DNA of 51,103 nucleotides from Lentisphaerota bacterium (GTDB lineage Bacteria; Verrucomicrobiota; Lentisphaeria; Victivallales; Victivallaceae). Both the position numbers and the translations under genes were made by a program. Below, piece after piece: positions 17,107 through 23,111 of the stretch (position 1 is the first letter of the stretch; the number at the start of each line of letters is the position of its first letter). The stretch lies in assembly GCA_015061775.1 (NCBI GenBank), contig SUVY01000013.1, positions 1 to 51,103 of the forward strand. The letters are read 5' to 3'. The notes under the pieces were generated by a model. That model ran no database searches. It had not been told where the DNA came from and was given only the letters and a program-made list of their open reading frames with translations.

Positions 17107-17144
17107 AATTCCGGAACTTCACAAGCAGGTTCCGGAATTTTTTT
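17107..17144 (+). terminator. Rho-independent terminator of htpG
   Basis: AATTCCGGAAC (17107-17117) and GTTCCGGAATT (17129-17139) form an 11-base perfect stem around an 11-base loop, running into seven T (17138-17144). It lies 19 bases after the htpG stop. Confidence 0.95.
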
Positions 17145-17227: not shown

Positions 17228-17359
17228 ATGTATATCGACGGCGGCACCGGAAGTATGTTGTTTCAGGCGGTTGCGGTAGGATTTTTTTCTTGTCTGGTAT
17301 TTTCAAGACAGATAATTTCCAAGCTCAAAAAACTCCTGTCGCGAGAGAAAAATGACTAA
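17228..17359 (+). CDS. 43-residue membrane microprotein
   Basis: A small gene beginning MYIDGGTGSMLFQAVAVG, with one membrane helix at about residues 10-27 and a basic tail (KLKKLLSREKND). AAAGG lies before the ATG. Its stop overlaps the start of the methyltransferase gene by eight bases, so it is the first gene of the cassette. Proteins of this kind, with a D/E-x-GTGS start and a single helix, are known from other bacteria beside NoeA-like methyltransferases and membrane phosphatase/sulfatase genes; this is from memory of such neighbourhoods. A membrane anchor or chaperone for the next two proteins is the natural guess. The conserved context and coupled start argue that it is real despite its size. 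Confidence 0.75.
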   Translation: MYIDGGTGSMLFQAVAVGFFSCLVFSRQIISKLKKLLSREKND

Positions 17360-18716
17360 GTCATCTCCGGCAGGACGCTTGCAGTCAAGTTTTCGTGATC
17401 CATCAGGATTTGTGTATCGCAAAGACGGGAAAGTATTCCGGCATATCTGTAAAAATGCGATGGCAGATTTTGAAAGGTTCATCTCAAGCGGACTCGCTGG
17501 AGTGCTGGTGGATAGAGAGCTGCTTTTGCCTTTTGAAATTATTTCAAAAGACAATGACTCCATTACCGTTGAGCCGGAGCAGATACCGTTTGTAACATGG
17601 TGTTACGAATGGAGTTATAATCAGTTTCTCGATGCGGCTGCAGTCACGGCTGAAATCTGCCGCACGGCACTGGAATACGGTTTTATCCTCAAGGATGCCA
17701 GCGCATTCAATCTGACATACCATAAAGGACGAATGTATTTTATAGATCATACAAGTTTTGTTCCGTATGATTTGGGTACTCCGTGGATGGCATATAAACA
17801 ATTTTGTATGCAATTCTTTTCTCCTCTTATGCTTATGAAATATGTTACCCCTGAGACGATTGCACTTTTAAAGAGCGATGTGGATGGTATAAAACTTGAT
17901 GTAGCTTCAAAAATGCTGCCGTGGAAAAGTTACTTTTTTCTTCCTGCGCTGACCCATATCCATCTGCACGCTCTCGCCGATAAGAAGTATTCCGGAAATA
18001 TGTCCGAAAGCCGTTCTGTACGGATGAAAGCAGACGGACTGCATGATCTATTGGAAACTATTTTGCATGATTTGAAAAGCTTGGGCCCCGGCAGCACAAA
18101 GACACTCTGGCAGGATTATTACAGTTGCGATCACTATTCAAAAGCAAGTTTTGAGCACAAAAAATTATTAACAGAAGAATTCTGTTCCAAAAGAAAGCCT
18201 GGAGTGCTTCTTGATGCCGGCGCAAACAGCGGAGTCTTTTCTCAGATAGCCTCACGCTACTCAACGATGGTCGTTGCAGCTGATTTTGATGCCAATGCTG
18301 TCGATGCACTTTACCTTAAATGCCGGAATACAAACAGCAACATTTTTCCGGTGAAACTTGATATATTCAATCCGACTCCGGCAGTCGGAGCGTTCAACGA
18401 GGAGCGCAGCAGTTTTTTTGACCGCTGTCAACCCGACTGTATCATGGGATTGGCTCTGATGCACCATTTGCGGGTGACCGGAAACTGGAATCTTGATAAC
18501 ATCGTAAAATTTTTTGCCATGGCGAAAAAATCTGCACTTGTGGAGTTTGTTCCGCTCGATGATCCAAGGATGCAGCAGCTTGTAAGGGGCAGGGGGAGCA
18601 TTTACGCAGATTGGGAGCTTGAAAATGTCGTGACGGCATTCAAAAGGAGTTTTTCCAAAGTGCGTATTTGTGAAATAATCAACAGTTCCCGTGTACTTAT
18701 TGAACTTGACAAATGA
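17352..18716 (+). CDS. NoeA-like SAM-dependent methyltransferase with kinase-like front half
   Basis: A 454-residue two-part protein. The C-terminal half is a class I methyltransferase: motif I is LLDAGANSGVFSQIA (DAGANSG at 288-294), an acidic VVAADFDANAV follows, and a later DCIMGLALMHHL corresponds to motif IV. It resembles the nodulation protein NoeA family, which modifies surface glycolipids. The N-terminal half carries GFILKDASAFNLTYHKGRMY then FIDHTSF (Asp115, Asn120, Asp132), reminiscent of the D-x4-N ... ID catalytic loop of kinase-fold enzymes. It begins inside the 43-residue gene and is followed seven bases later by the AlkP-fold gene. The substrate is probably an envelope glycan or lipid (inference). 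Confidence 0.8.
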   Translation: MTKSSPAGRLQSSFRDPSGFVYRKDGKVFRHICKNAMADFERFISSGLAGVLVDRELLLPFEIISKDNDSITVEPEQIPFVTWCYEWSYNQFLDAAAVTAEICRTALEYGFILKDASAFNLTYHKGRMYFIDHTSFVPYDLGTPWMAYKQFCMQFFSPLMLMKYVTPETIALLKSDVDGIKLDVASKMLPWKSYFFLPALTHIHLHALADKKYSGNMSESRSVRMKADGLHDLLETILHDLKSLGPGSTKTLWQDYYSCDHYSKASFEHKKLLTEEFCSKRKPGVLLDAGANSGVFSQIASRYSTMVVAADFDANAVDALYLKCRNTNSNIFPVKLDIFNPTPAVGAFNEERSSFFDRCQPDCIMGLALMHHLRVTGNWNLDNIVKFFAMAKKSALVEFVPLDDPRMQQLVRGRGSIYADWELENVVTAFKRSFSKVRICEIINSSRVLIELDK

Positions 18717-18723
18717 GGTTTTT

Positions 18724-21039
18724 ATGCAAGCTGGATTTTTCCGGAAGAGAGCTGATATATTTCTGCTCTCCATGGCGGTCGGAGCGGTTTTTTCAGCTCC
18801 GGTGATGAATATTTACCTGACGAACAAAAGTGCGTTTATTCTGAGCACTCCTGCCGCTGCAGCAATCAGTTTGGCAATCATGGGTGCGATATCTGCCGCA
18901 GTTGCCGGACTCCTTTGGGGTTTCCGCTCATCCGGATATAAAGCCGGAGTGACGTCACTGGTATTGGCTTTTGCATTGAGTGTACTTCTGCAATTTCATT
19001 TCGCCGAGGATTATTTTCGTGATTATACCACTCCGGAGACCAGTATATTCGACAGAATATTGATGTTTTCCACCCACTTTTTTCTTCTTGCAGTTCCATT
19101 TTTTGCTTCTTGGAAACTGCGGAAAATTGTGTTTGCCAATATCTGCCGCATATCCCTTGTGCTGCTGTTTGCCCAGCTTGCTTATGCAGTGCTGCCGCTC
19201 TTTGACCGGAACACCCGACACGAGCAATATGACTATCAGGAGTACTATTTCAGCGAGCAGGATAAATTTACATTCGGAAGTAAAAGGAATATAATTTTGT
19301 TGGTGGTTGACTCAATGGGAGCCGATATCGCCCGTGAGCTTTTGACAAAATATCCAGAAGTCGCTTCCGGACTTGCCGATTTCACCATGTTCGACAAATA
19401 CACCAGCGACAATCCCCGCACGATGTACGCTGTTCCAGCGATGTTGAGCGGAATACCTTACGCGGCAGATGAAGACGATGAAGACGGTCATTCAAAATAC
19501 CTTGAGCGGGTGTGCCGTGATAAAAACTCACTCTTTTCCGGATTGAAACGGCATGGGTTCAGAGTTGAGGGGTATCCGTTTATTCTGCAAACGATAAGTT
19601 ACGCTCCTGATGTGATAGACAACTCAACCACAGTATCCGGCGAAGTGCAAAAGGCATCATTCAGGAAGCTGCTTGAAACTTCATTTTCCCGGATGGTCAT
19701 GCTGCCGTTGAGAAAGCTGTTTGGGGAAAAAGAGAGTCTTCCATTTGTTGTTCCGACGGAAAGCCGTCCGGGAGAGCCGTATGACAGAGTGTTTTACAGC
19801 AATCTGGTAAAAGAGTTCAAGATCGGAGAGAACGAAAAAGTGTTCAAATATCTCCATTTGCATGGAGCTCACGACCCCGTTGTCACCGGAGAAAACTTGG
19901 AAACACCAGAAAAAACTCCGTTGCGTGTCGAACAGTTAAGAGGAAGTTTCAAAGTGGTTTTAAAGCTCATCGAGCTGCTCAAAAGTCACGACTTGTGGAG
20001 TGAAACATCAATCATCATTACTGGAGATCACTCTGAGTTATACACTCCAGGCACAGTCTGTTTTGTCAAAAATTCCCGGAGTGCCAGTCACCCATTGATG
20101 GTAAATCATTCTCCCGGAAAAGTTGATTACCTTGCCGGAACCATACTCAAAGAGTTTGAAAAAGATACTCCTCTGCCGTCACTCAATACGTGTGCTGCAG
20201 TACAGGCGTATCAGCCGGAAAAATATTATACGCCGGTGGAAACGGCAACTGCATGGAAAAAAATGACACCATCTGTTCCTTCAGCTCACGAAAGTCTTAA
20301 CACCAACTGTTACCTTGACGGAAACAAACTTGTGTTTGAGTCTTATCCTGATGCCGTGGATGCACTTTGCGGTTACCGTATTGTGGTGAGAAGTGAGGAA
20401 AATAATCAGGTGTGGTCAAGTGAATATATATTTTCTACTGACCAGGCTCGTTACATAACCAGTTGCGAATTTCCCTTTCCGGACGGTAATTACCGGGTGG
20501 AAATCCACAGTCTCGGAAAGAATGAGCTTCATCTTGAACCGCATCTGCAATCAGCCTCACGCCGTTTGTGGAAAAATTTTTTGAGGATAAAAGATGGCAA
20601 AGCTCAGGCGATAAAGGAGCATGAAATTGCAGCAAAACGTCACCTGTATGCCGGAAAAACGATTGATTTCGGTGTGAAAAGCTCCTTCCCGATGCTCAAA
20701 ATTCGGGAAAAAGCCGCGTTCCGTCAGGAGTATCTGCTGATTTTCGATGGAGCCGTTATGGAACTCTCTCTTGCCGCAAGCGAACGCGCTGGAGTTCTGC
20801 GTTTTGCCGTTATTGGTCAATACCATAGGGGAGGCGTATTGACAGTAAGTTGCGGTGATAATATCCGCAAGCAGATAACACTCAAAGCCGGAGTGGAGCA
20901 AACGGTCGATATTCCGCTTGTTGCCAATACAACTCCTGAAAAGCTGACTCTCAAATTCGGTTATGTTGCAGAAAATATTTCCAACGCCGCTCCACAGCGC
21001 AACCCCGGAGTGAACCTGCTGCGCATGGAGCGTCTGTGA
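18724..21039 (+). CDS. Membrane alkaline-phosphatase/sulfatase-fold protein
   Basis: A 771-residue protein with about five N-terminal membrane helices (roughly 12-30, 38-68, 73-92, 112-130 and 140-158). The following domain has the AlkP-superfamily pattern: NIILLVVDSMGAD with metal ligand Asp196, NPRTMYAVPAMLSG with likely nucleophile Thr233, HLHGAHDPVV, and IITGDHSELY. This is the layout of LtaS- and phosphoethanolamine-transferase-like enzymes, so transfer or hydrolysis of phosphate-linked head groups on an envelope polymer is likely. The last 250 residues form a beta-rich tail. GAGG precedes the ATG at 18724; an earlier in-frame ATG at 18691 lies inside the previous gene and is not used. 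It ends five bases from a convergent gene with no terminator between them. Confidence 0.8.
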   Translation: MQAGFFRKRADIFLLSMAVGAVFSAPVMNIYLTNKSAFILSTPAAAAISLAIMGAISAAVAGLLWGFRSSGYKAGVTSLVLAFALSVLLQFHFAEDYFRDYTTPETSIFDRILMFSTHFFLLAVPFFASWKLRKIVFANICRISLVLLFAQLAYAVLPLFDRNTRHEQYDYQEYYFSEQDKFTFGSKRNIILLVVDSMGADIARELLTKYPEVASGLADFTMFDKYTSDNPRTMYAVPAMLSGIPYAADEDDEDGHSKYLERVCRDKNSLFSGLKRHGFRVEGYPFILQTISYAPDVIDNSTTVSGEVQKASFRKLLETSFSRMVMLPLRKLFGEKESLPFVVPTESRPGEPYDRVFYSNLVKEFKIGENEKVFKYLHLHGAHDPVVTGENLETPEKTPLRVEQLRGSFKVVLKLIELLKSHDLWSETSIIITGDHSELYTPGTVCFVKNSRSASHPLMVNHSPGKVDYLAGTILKEFEKDTPLPSLNTCAAVQAYQPEKYYTPVETATAWKKMTPSVPSAHESLNTNCYLDGNKLVFESYPDAVDALCGYRIVVRSEENNQVWSSEYIFSTDQARYITSCEFPFPDGNYRVEIHSLGKNELHLEPHLQSASRRLWKNFLRIKDGKAQAIKEHEIAAKRHLYAGKTIDFGVKSSFPMLKIREKAAFRQEYLLIFDGAVMELSLAASERAGVLRFAVIGQYHRGGVLTVSCGDNIRKQITLKAGVEQTVDIPLVANTTPEKLTLKFGYVAENISNAAPQRNPGVNLLRMERL

Positions 21040-21044
21040 TCAGT

Positions 21045-23111
21045 TCACTTGACCGATATTCTGCGTACCGGCATGGTGATAACGTTTTTGTTGCGCCGGA
21101 TTATTCCGCTGCGGTTGGGCGCTCCATCGTAGCTTGCTCTGAGCAGAAAGAGCTGATTTCGTTCAAACGGAGTGCACTCTTTGGATACGTTGAAGTTGAA
21201 AGAGACGACATTGTTCTGCACCTTCATATCTGAAACAGTGACTCCGCGCGGCGGATCGATAGGTTCGACGCTGTCGATGGTTGGATTTCCGTTCTTGGGG
21301 AGGTCTTTGAATTTGATTTCAAAGCGGTATGATTTTCCTTTTTCTATCGTAACCGGAGCGGAGCTGCTCCAACTGAAGAGATGTGCGTTCCAAGCCCATG
21401 ACGGAGCAATATAAAGCTTGTGTGACGGAACGATATGGTAGTAGGCGAACGCCTGCATGAGTTCGTCTCCGGCGGTGAAGTTTACTATCTCTTTTCCGTT
21501 TTTTGCCGCGATGCTGATATTGACCATTTTATTCGGGTGCTTCGCGGTAGCCGGAGCTTTCAGCGTGAACGTGGCACGTTCAGCGTTTGCCGGAATGGTT
21601 TTAGCTCCGGTAAGGTAGTAACCGTGAGAGTTCCTGACTTCGAGAGTGATCTCCTTGTCGTAGCCGTCAAGTCTTTCGACCACGGCGGAAAACTGCTTGC
21701 AGCCATTGCGCGGAACCGATATCAGGCTCGGAGTGACATAGCCGATAAATCCCGGACGCGGGTTATCTATGCGCAAATGGTAATAGTGTTCGCTGCTTCC
21801 GGCTCCGGTTGTGTCAGTGAGCTCGACTTTGTAAATGCCCTTTTGCGGGGCCTTGAACATCAGATAGCTGTCGGCATTGTGCAATATTGTTCCGACCCTT
21901 GGACGCTTGATATCGTCGTTTGAAGCGACTAATTTGCCATTCTGGTCGAACACTTTGATTATTCCGTCGAGCGGAGAGCCCATTCGACGGGCGAAGAGTT
22001 CCAGCACGACAGGTTTTTCAGGAGACGCATTGAGCGAGAATGTCATTTTTTCACCCGGTTTGCTTATGACTCCCTGCATGCGGCAGGGGACCGGAACAGT
22101 TCCGACTGAGCCGCTTGCAGGCAGCAGATTTCTGATCCGCTGCGGGGCAGGGGGAATGATGAATTTCTTTACCCCCTTTGATGCCTGTATCCGGTAAACG
22201 AAATCGGCTCTTCCGCGGTAGATCGAGTCACGGATGATGAGCGTGTAGGTGTCGTCCGCCGGAGCTTTGAATATCAAAAGCGGGTCGGGGTTGAAGTGGT
22301 GATCGTCGGCGAATGCGACGGTTTTGCCCTTTGAGTCAAAGACTTCAAGTACAGCCTGAAAATGTCCGGGAACTCCATCTCCGATAAAAGGAACGAGCTC
22401 TCTTGCTGTGGTCTTGAAGGAGATTATTTCTCCCTTTTTTGCCTTGAAGAAAAATATATCGCGTTCACCTGGATATATCTGACCGTTGGCAACTCCGGGG
22501 ACTGGAATGAACGGGCGCGGAGTTTTTACCTTTTTTCCGGGGCGTTCATAGAGCGGTTCGTTGATTTCAGGTACATCGCTTACGAAGAAGGGAACCTGAT
22601 TGGTGATATCATTTCTGTTGCACAGCCTCAACTGCCGTTTTCCTGTCGGAGCATCTTTATCTATTTTCAGTTTTACGATGACTCTCTGGTTGATGGACGG
22701 AGACATCTGCAATGAATTGCGGGGAGTGAAGAACCACCTGTGAAAAATTGCGGTTTCCAGCGCATCAAGTTTATCCATGTTGTCATACCAGGGGGATACT
22801 CTCCAAAACTGGGTGTTCTCCGGCATTTTGGGTTGTGGAGTGCCCTTTTCGATCGCTTCGATCCATTTGGTCATATAGCGTCTCTGGTCTCCTGCAGGAA
22901 CAGGAAATCCCGGAACGTAAGTTATCTTCTCGATTGAGATCCCGGGACCGGCATCTATTTCTCTTTTTCCGCCGATGCCCTGACCTCCGAGAACTATGGT
23001 TGTGACGGTTCCGCGTTTTGCTCCTGCCGGGTAGCAGAAGCCGATGTGTCCTGCGGAAAATGCTTCAGCTGCGATAATTCCGGTTACAGCAAATAAAAAT
23101 AATTTTTTCAT
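21045..23111 (-). CDS. Exported protein with two PPC domains
   Basis: A 688-residue protein with a signal peptide (MKKLFLFAVTGIIAAEAFSA). The first 200 residues match the front part of planctomycete-type exported proteins that begin with a wrapped GTVTTIVLGGQG motif. Two bacterial pre-peptidase C-terminal (PPC) domains follow at about 208-310 and 345-450; each has the VFDSKGK/VFDQNGKLVA, ADDHHFNPDPLLIF and KAPADDTYTLII style of strands. The C-terminal third is Ig-like. No catalytic centre is visible, so a binding or structural role is likely. GAGGTGAAG precedes the ATG. It follows the DUF1549/DUF1553 gene by 16 bases, the usual partner in Planctomycetes and relatives. Confidence 0.75.
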   Translation of the reverse strand: MKKLFLFAVTGIIAAEAFSAGHIGFCYPAGAKRGTVTTIVLGGQGIGGKREIDAGPGISIEKITYVPGFPVPAGDQRRYMTKWIEAIEKGTPQPKMPENTQFWRVSPWYDNMDKLDALETAIFHRWFFTPRNSLQMSPSINQRVIVKLKIDKDAPTGKRQLRLCNRNDITNQVPFFVSDVPEINEPLYERPGKKVKTPRPFIPVPGVANGQIYPGERDIFFFKAKKGEIISFKTTARELVPFIGDGVPGHFQAVLEVFDSKGKTVAFADDHHFNPDPLLIFKAPADDTYTLIIRDSIYRGRADFVYRIQASKGVKKFIIPPAPQRIRNLLPASGSVGTVPVPCRMQGVISKPGEKMTFSLNASPEKPVVLELFARRMGSPLDGIIKVFDQNGKLVASNDDIKRPRVGTILHNADSYLMFKAPQKGIYKVELTDTTGAGSSEHYYHLRIDNPRPGFIGYVTPSLISVPRNGCKQFSAVVERLDGYDKEITLEVRNSHGYYLTGAKTIPANAERATFTLKAPATAKHPNKMVNISIAAKNGKEIVNFTAGDELMQAFAYYHIVPSHKLYIAPSWAWNAHLFSWSSSAPVTIEKGKSYRFEIKFKDLPKNGNPTIDSVEPIDPPRGVTVSDMKVQNNVVSFNFNVSKECTPFERNQLFLLRASYDGAPNRSGIIRRNKNVITMPVRRISVK

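Follow-up and report, generated by a model that had tools for sequence, protein, structure and literature searches.

A three-gene cassette of a Lentisphaerota bacterium encoding a conserved microprotein, a NoeA-like kinase-methyltransferase and an AlkP-type membrane enzyme

We have analysed a stretch of 51,103 nucleotides from a Lentisphaerota bacterium (contig SUVY01000013.1, positions 1 to 51,103; hereafter the window), in which three consecutive genes of the plus strand code for a microprotein of 43 amino acids, a NoeA-like protein that joins a kinase-fold domain to a methyltransferase, and a membrane protein of the AlkP superfamily. Our preferred reading, to which we give a probability of about 45%, is that this cassette is an envelope-modification module of the NoeA-NoeB type with an obligate microprotein that couples the two enzymes. 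The enzyme pair was already known, and it is the near-universal microprotein that is worth following. We found no description of a YxDPG(T/S)GSxxxQ microprotein in the literature or in curated families. At odds slightly short of even, this family, present in bacteria and in at least one archaeon, would be an essential subunit of NoeA and AlkP-type envelope transferases that links both faces of the membrane through an outward YxDPGxGSxxxQ motif, and the nodL-noeA-noeB operon of Sinorhizobium meliloti would have an overlooked fourth gene.

The microprotein family and its genomic partners

The microprotein gene (17228-17359, plus strand) codes for a protein with MYIDGGTGSMLFQ at the N-terminus, one transmembrane helix and a basic tail. 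The family motif, defined by conservation over 76 members, occupies residues 2-13 (17231-17266, plus strand; Y-[LI]-D-x-G-T-G-S-xxx-Q). Over the whole family it reads Y-[LI]-D-P-G-[TS]-G-S-x-x-x-Q, with the Gln kept in 76/76 members, the Ser at motif position 8 in 75/76 and the second Gly in 74/76, while the 76/76 of the Tyr is not independent because this residue was demanded by the search. By its motif, single helix, basic tail and place before a NoeA or AlkP gene, the window microprotein is a member of this YxDPG(T/S)GSxxxQ family. In all 76 members Lys and Arg are absent from the first 12 residues counted from the beginning of the motif, and the 18 residues past the helix carry a mean of 4.9 Lys/Arg versus 0.5 Asp/Glu, so that the positive-inside rule predicts a motif facing out and a tail facing in. 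Of 74 members, 46 carry a leader 13-36 residues long, which in 41 cases ends with an Ala directly in front of the motif Tyr, and the members that have no long leader, among them the window microprotein, begin at or within ~11 residues of the motif. As far as the sequences tell, mature proteins of both classes would carry the motif at their N-terminus or close to it.

Compared with the sister species, the 34 codons that could be aligned contain 8 synonymous changes and no non-synonymous ones, and this excess, together with the recurrence of the module, points to more than chance. In its own genome the family profile matched the window microprotein alone (E 6.7e-13). Pfam and NCBIfam contained no family for the microprotein, only scattered matches to one or two members each and none for the window protein. 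A text search of the literature for 'DPGTGS' gave one match, in an unrelated paper on a chromoprotein, and the S. meliloti small-proteome paper mentions neither noeA nor nodL in its main text. The single helix of the original prediction was confirmed by the hydropathy scan. The membrane anchor that it had proposed is too simple, because the conserved part is the motif predicted to face outside, and the microprotein also stands beside AlkP enzymes with no NoeA nearby.

The neighbourhoods examined came from 80 loci of a genome scan and 3 viral contigs. In relatives, too, a GTGS microprotein precedes the NoeA gene. A strict regular expression placed it before 31 of 77 NoeA genes versus 1 case on the reverse strand, used as control, and a profile built from the regular-expression matches, that is, from neighbours of NoeA, detected it at 78/83 NoeA loci of many phyla and one archaeon, nearly always at E < 1e-8; these loci were picked by similarity to the window NoeA and the profile counts thus favour close relatives. 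Among the five loci that gave no profile match, three lie on contigs that start 3-52 bases before NoeA, a fourth (L037) has no adjacent microprotein and, at another place of the genome, one next to an AlkP gene, and only the genome of the fifth (L115) shows none. An AlkP gene was present in the flanks of 64/83 loci, in 51 of them at most 0.7 kb downstream on the same strand. Thus the neighbourhood survey that had been suggested as a check did find the three genes together in other genomes.

A less biased picture comes from 336 genomes of the window's phylum, where NoeA was found in 22, the microprotein in 27 and both in 21 (Fisher p ~5e-27, a value that overstates independence because the surveyed genomes are related). 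These genomes contain 23 full-length NoeA copies, 17 of them with the microprotein directly upstream; in one it lies 1.5 kb upstream with the AlkP gene in between, one copy is cut by the contig end and in four the microprotein is only on another contig. Such co-occurrence from separate contigs speaks for dependence rather than mere hitch-hiking. Furthermore, pairwise protein distances co-vary, with a Mantel r of 0.64 for NoeA-AlkP, 0.32 for NoeA-microprotein and 0.34 for AlkP-microprotein. The profile also located the microprotein beside AlkP genes with no NoeA nearby at L129, L139 and, more weakly, L125. Another locus, L121, has two pairs of a microprotein and a membrane protein, with sequences GERQSAAPY ... 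DHG and a similar one that no profile matched, and by eye its membrane proteins look like the phosphoethanolamine-transferase type. To be found with either partner is the behaviour expected of a coupling subunit.

Several other arrangements were seen. Two related genomes have a GTGS microprotein away from NoeA, beside an EF-hand protein (L122:7795-8169 and L123:8258-8605). Three IMG/VR contigs called viral (L116, L117, L118) carry NoeA with the microprotein upstream and may be prophage, mobile elements or misclassified. A sister class of microproteins with AYIDPSVMSYTVQAIAG was found at L125:8152-8385, L126 (ends 8078) and L130:4507-5097. The L125 member overlaps the end of a protein with YidC-like and CDP-glycerol glycerophosphotransferase parts, and in L130 an open reading frame (ORF) of the same size (630 aa; domains not scanned) holds the same place by the sister microprotein. 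This class suggests a wider family of envelope-linked microproteins.

The two enzymes and their setting

The gene of the NoeA-like protein (17352-18716, plus strand; 454 aa) overlaps the microprotein gene by 8 bases (17352-17359, plus strand), and the AlkP-like gene begins 7 bases past its stop, so that the layout of the original prediction proved right to the base. The likeness to NoeA, also predicted, extends over the full length, since NoeA of S. meliloti aligns with residues 8-454 at 29% identity (E 6e-45, tblastn against plasmids). In the same kind of search, plasmid-encoded proteins of Singulisphaera, Gemmatirosa and a deltaproteobacterium matched at 34-37%. The whole protein was modelled by AlphaFold2 from a 65-sequence alignment with a mean predicted local distance difference test (pLDDT) score of 91.8, and it has no membrane segments.

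The kinase-like half corresponds to residues ~13-246 (17388-18089, plus strand). Modelled alone, residues 1-246 reached a mean pLDDT of 92, and all 50 VIA-align matches listed for this model were kinases or kinase-fold domains (Z 10.2-11.0, 191-207 residues aligned, root mean square deviation (rmsd) mostly 4-4.6). One example is 3hgk_B, which aligned with positions 4-246 of the model over 197 residues at Z 11.0 and rmsd 4.0. Foldseek led to kinases as well (PknG, MSK1, PAK1, IRAK4 and RioK1). Neither phmmer with the NoeA-like protein nor a profile of the kinase domain gave a significant match among solved structures. By the predicted structure, then, the N-terminal half is a protein-kinase fold. 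Residues R30, E86, D115, N120 and D132 are invariant in 65/65 NoeA homologues, and D115, N120 and D132 have the D-x4-N ... ID arrangement that the original prediction had read in the window sequence. That prediction was to fall if the N-terminal half had no kinase fold and the three genes did not recur elsewhere; a kinase fold and recurrence are what we found.

The C-terminal half, residues ~249-454 (18096-18713, plus strand), matched class I S-adenosylmethionine methyltransferases in VIA-align with Z up to 16. MePCE and BCDIN3D, two enzymes that methylate phosphates, were among the matches; they are tied with other rows (those at most 1 Z unit apart were counted as tied) and hence are no evidence for phosphate methylation. 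Homology over both domains, the kinase fold, an Arg in place of the kinase Lys and the C-terminal methyltransferase make this protein a member of the NoeA / Lani_1194 kinase-methyltransferase family. A distant NoeA-like subfamily at ~22-25% identity (L029:5256-6677 and L030:5408-6805) keeps the kinase and methyltransferase motifs, and no GTGS microprotein was found in the fetched stretch of either locus.

The third gene (18724-21039, plus strand; 771 aa from ATG), in the position of noeB, codes for a protein that is polytopic in the membrane and carries an AlkP-superfamily domain, where a conserved Thr takes the nucleophile position. Pfam Sulfatase matches residues 188-439 (E 7e-12), N-terminal to which the hydropathy scan gave the five hydrophobic segments expected (residues ~12-153; 18757-19182, plus strand), and the catalytic set D196, T233, H378, H383 and the D435-H436 pair (19309-20031, plus strand) is kept in an alignment of 47 homologues; the AlkP-type membrane enzyme of the original prediction is thereby upheld. 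Iterated profile searches started from either this protein or NoeB joined both in one set of 53 sequences at E < 1e-3, a relation that runs through intermediate sequences only. The best solved structures matched by the AlkP-like profile are sulfatases, and the conserved Thr aligns with the catalytic Cys of sulfatase 6bia. A formylglycine sulfatase has a Cys/Ser-x-Pro-x-Arg motif where the window protein has PRTMYAVP, and with Thr at the Cys position it cannot be such an enzyme. Actually, Thr is the typical nucleophile in phosphotransferases like LtaS and the phosphoethanolamine transferases, which have N-terminal membrane helices and an extracytoplasmic AlkP domain. Solved LtaS or EptA showed no sequence match to the AlkP-like protein, nor did phmmer find one for it among solved structures.

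Upstream, a terminator-like hairpin 3' of htpG (17107-17139, plus strand; a 13-pair stem, then a T run) sets the cassette apart from the preceding gene, and downstream the limit is a convergent gene on the opposite strand (21045-23111). The source genome is a draft of 2.7 Mb with 98% completeness, and its nearest named relatives in the genome scan are Lentisphaeria and Victivallales metagenome-assembled genomes (MAGs) from ruminant guts. In the genus the distribution of the cassette is patchy, with a NoeA match in 6 of 33 other genomes (G001-G033; some drafts are incomplete), indicating that it has been gained or lost often. The closest relative has its AlkP reading frame divided between two ORFs (L036:7340-9683, the place of L018:9898-12205), owing either to an error in the MAG or to disruption of the gene.

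A possible coupling mechanism and its alternatives

With the motif predicted outside and the basic tail inside, we infer that the microprotein could couple a cytoplasmic NoeA with the extracytoplasmic AlkP enzyme. NoeA would stand at the inner face of the membrane and act on a lipid-linked sugar or glycolipid; like WbdD, it would first phosphorylate this substrate and then methylate the product. The AlkP enzyme would next transfer, swap or trim a phospho head group on the outer side, and the microprotein would connect both enzymes, reaching NoeA with its tail and the AlkP domain with its motif. Should the microprotein indeed be required as a subunit, it would offer a way into the function of this kinase-methyltransferase family and would be an example of a short membrane protein missed in a well-known operon.

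Besides the choice of the loci and the relatedness of the surveyed genomes, several points weigh against this coupling model. The contacts among the three proteins are inferred. No glycan cluster adjoins the window cassette, whose neighbours are mostly housekeeping genes (HtpG, Mur ligase, DNA polymerase III delta, Ham1 and a PP-loop protein). In roughly 14 loci whose flanks are of reasonable extent, many belonging to Chloroflexota, microprotein and NoeA are present and no AlkP gene lies in the fetched flanks, indicating that an AlkP step is not obligatory nearby. Finally, Arg30, in an N-lobe strand, takes the place of the VAIK Lys in 65/65 homologues (its match to R38 of Lani_1194 is positional and does not come from a superposition), and the published analysis of the Lani_1194 family found no ion-pair Glu (PMC9758233), which together make kinase activity uncertain.

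These last two features are also what favours the main rival, an unlikely one in our opinion, in which the kinase fold would be a pseudokinase or a nucleotide-sensing scaffold and only the methyltransferase and the AlkP enzyme would be catalytic. Yet D115, N120 and D132, which stand where a kinase has its catalytic Asp, its Asn and its DFG Asp, do not vary through many phyla, as in a working phosphotransferase, and neither does E86. It is less probable still that what the module makes or decorates is not an envelope polymer but a lipo-oligosaccharide signal that is soluble and secreted, the role proposed for NoeA and NoeB with Nod factors. Both noeA and noeB are host-range genes of the nodL operon (PMC4053727, PMC9048898), but homologues occur in many organisms not known for Nod factors, such as Lentisphaeria, Chloroflexota and an archaeon. 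Slightly more doubtful again is that the microprotein is itself a substrate or a released peptide, with signal peptidase freeing an N-terminal YLDPGTGS to be decorated by the AlkP or another enzyme. The long leaders do resemble signal peptides ending in AxA before the Tyr and the nearly invariant Ser at position 8 would suit it, but over a third of the members, the window one included, have no long leader, helix and basic tail are kept, and the invariant Gln lies within the hydrophobic stretch. That three unrelated genes stand together by chance, as the few NoeA copies with no adjacent microprotein or AlkP gene could suggest, is highly improbable given the linkage across many phyla, the co-occurrence from separate contigs, the overlapping genes and the correlated divergence.

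Comparison with known systems

The AlkP-like protein resembles LtaS and the phosphoethanolamine transferases in its N-terminal membrane helices, AlkP domain predicted to be extracytoplasmic and Thr in the nucleophile position, and differs from them in that the solved structures matched by its profile are sulfatases. For the proposed order of reactions the model is WbdD of Escherichia coli O9a, a single polypeptide that adds a phosphate to a lipid-linked glycan and afterwards methylates it, capping the O9a O-antigen (PMC3482155). Both proteins have kinase and methyltransferase fused in one chain, but in WbdD the kinase is not N-terminal and is followed by a C-terminal coiled coil, whereas in the window protein the kinase comes first and the methyltransferase last. 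To our knowledge WbdD has no microprotein or AlkP partner.

A much closer relative is Lani_1194 of Legionella, whose family, according to the paper that describes it, is only remotely related to that of WbdD (PMC9758233). This 2022 report describes for Lani_1194 and its homologue NoeA a kinase and a methyltransferase in one chain with Arg for Lys and the D/N/D set, and it is by its own link to NoeA that the family is the same as that of the window protein. It also gives the AlkP-fold Lani_1195 in 38% of the neighbourhoods and Lani_1193 in 65%. The NoeA fusion with its AlkP neighbour is therefore a rediscovery of what was published there. Lani_1193 is not described in the main text and may well be the YxDPG microprotein; the association would then already be on record, though neither the motif nor the topology.

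The nearest counterpart of the cassette is the S. meliloti nodL-noeA-noeB operon (nod box n5), counted as three genes in the papers; the names NoeA and NoeB were given to host-range nodulation proteins in a 1995 paper, and the works that cite it still only hypothesise about their chemistry. Like the window, it has a full-length NoeA, an AlkP-fold gene directly downstream and a DPGTGS microprotein, which on pSymA is an ORF of 71 aa (MPIIMSVVGFLILSIVPAHA-YLDPGTGSMLVQ...) between nodL and noeA, annotated as hypothetical protein and overlapping noeA by 23 bases. Using tblastn, this microprotein was found in 61 Rhizobiaceae plasmid records (57 Sinorhizobium, 3 Rhizobium and 1 Ensifer), genus counts equal to those of NoeA there. 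The window cassette differs in having no nodL, in a microprotein that begins with no leader where the S. meliloti one has it, and in an AlkP protein ~220 residues longer, mostly by a C-terminal extension. Our survey places NoeA and NoeB in a module that spans many phyla, mostly outside the rhizobia, with a small third component that is open to genetic test in a well-studied laboratory strain.

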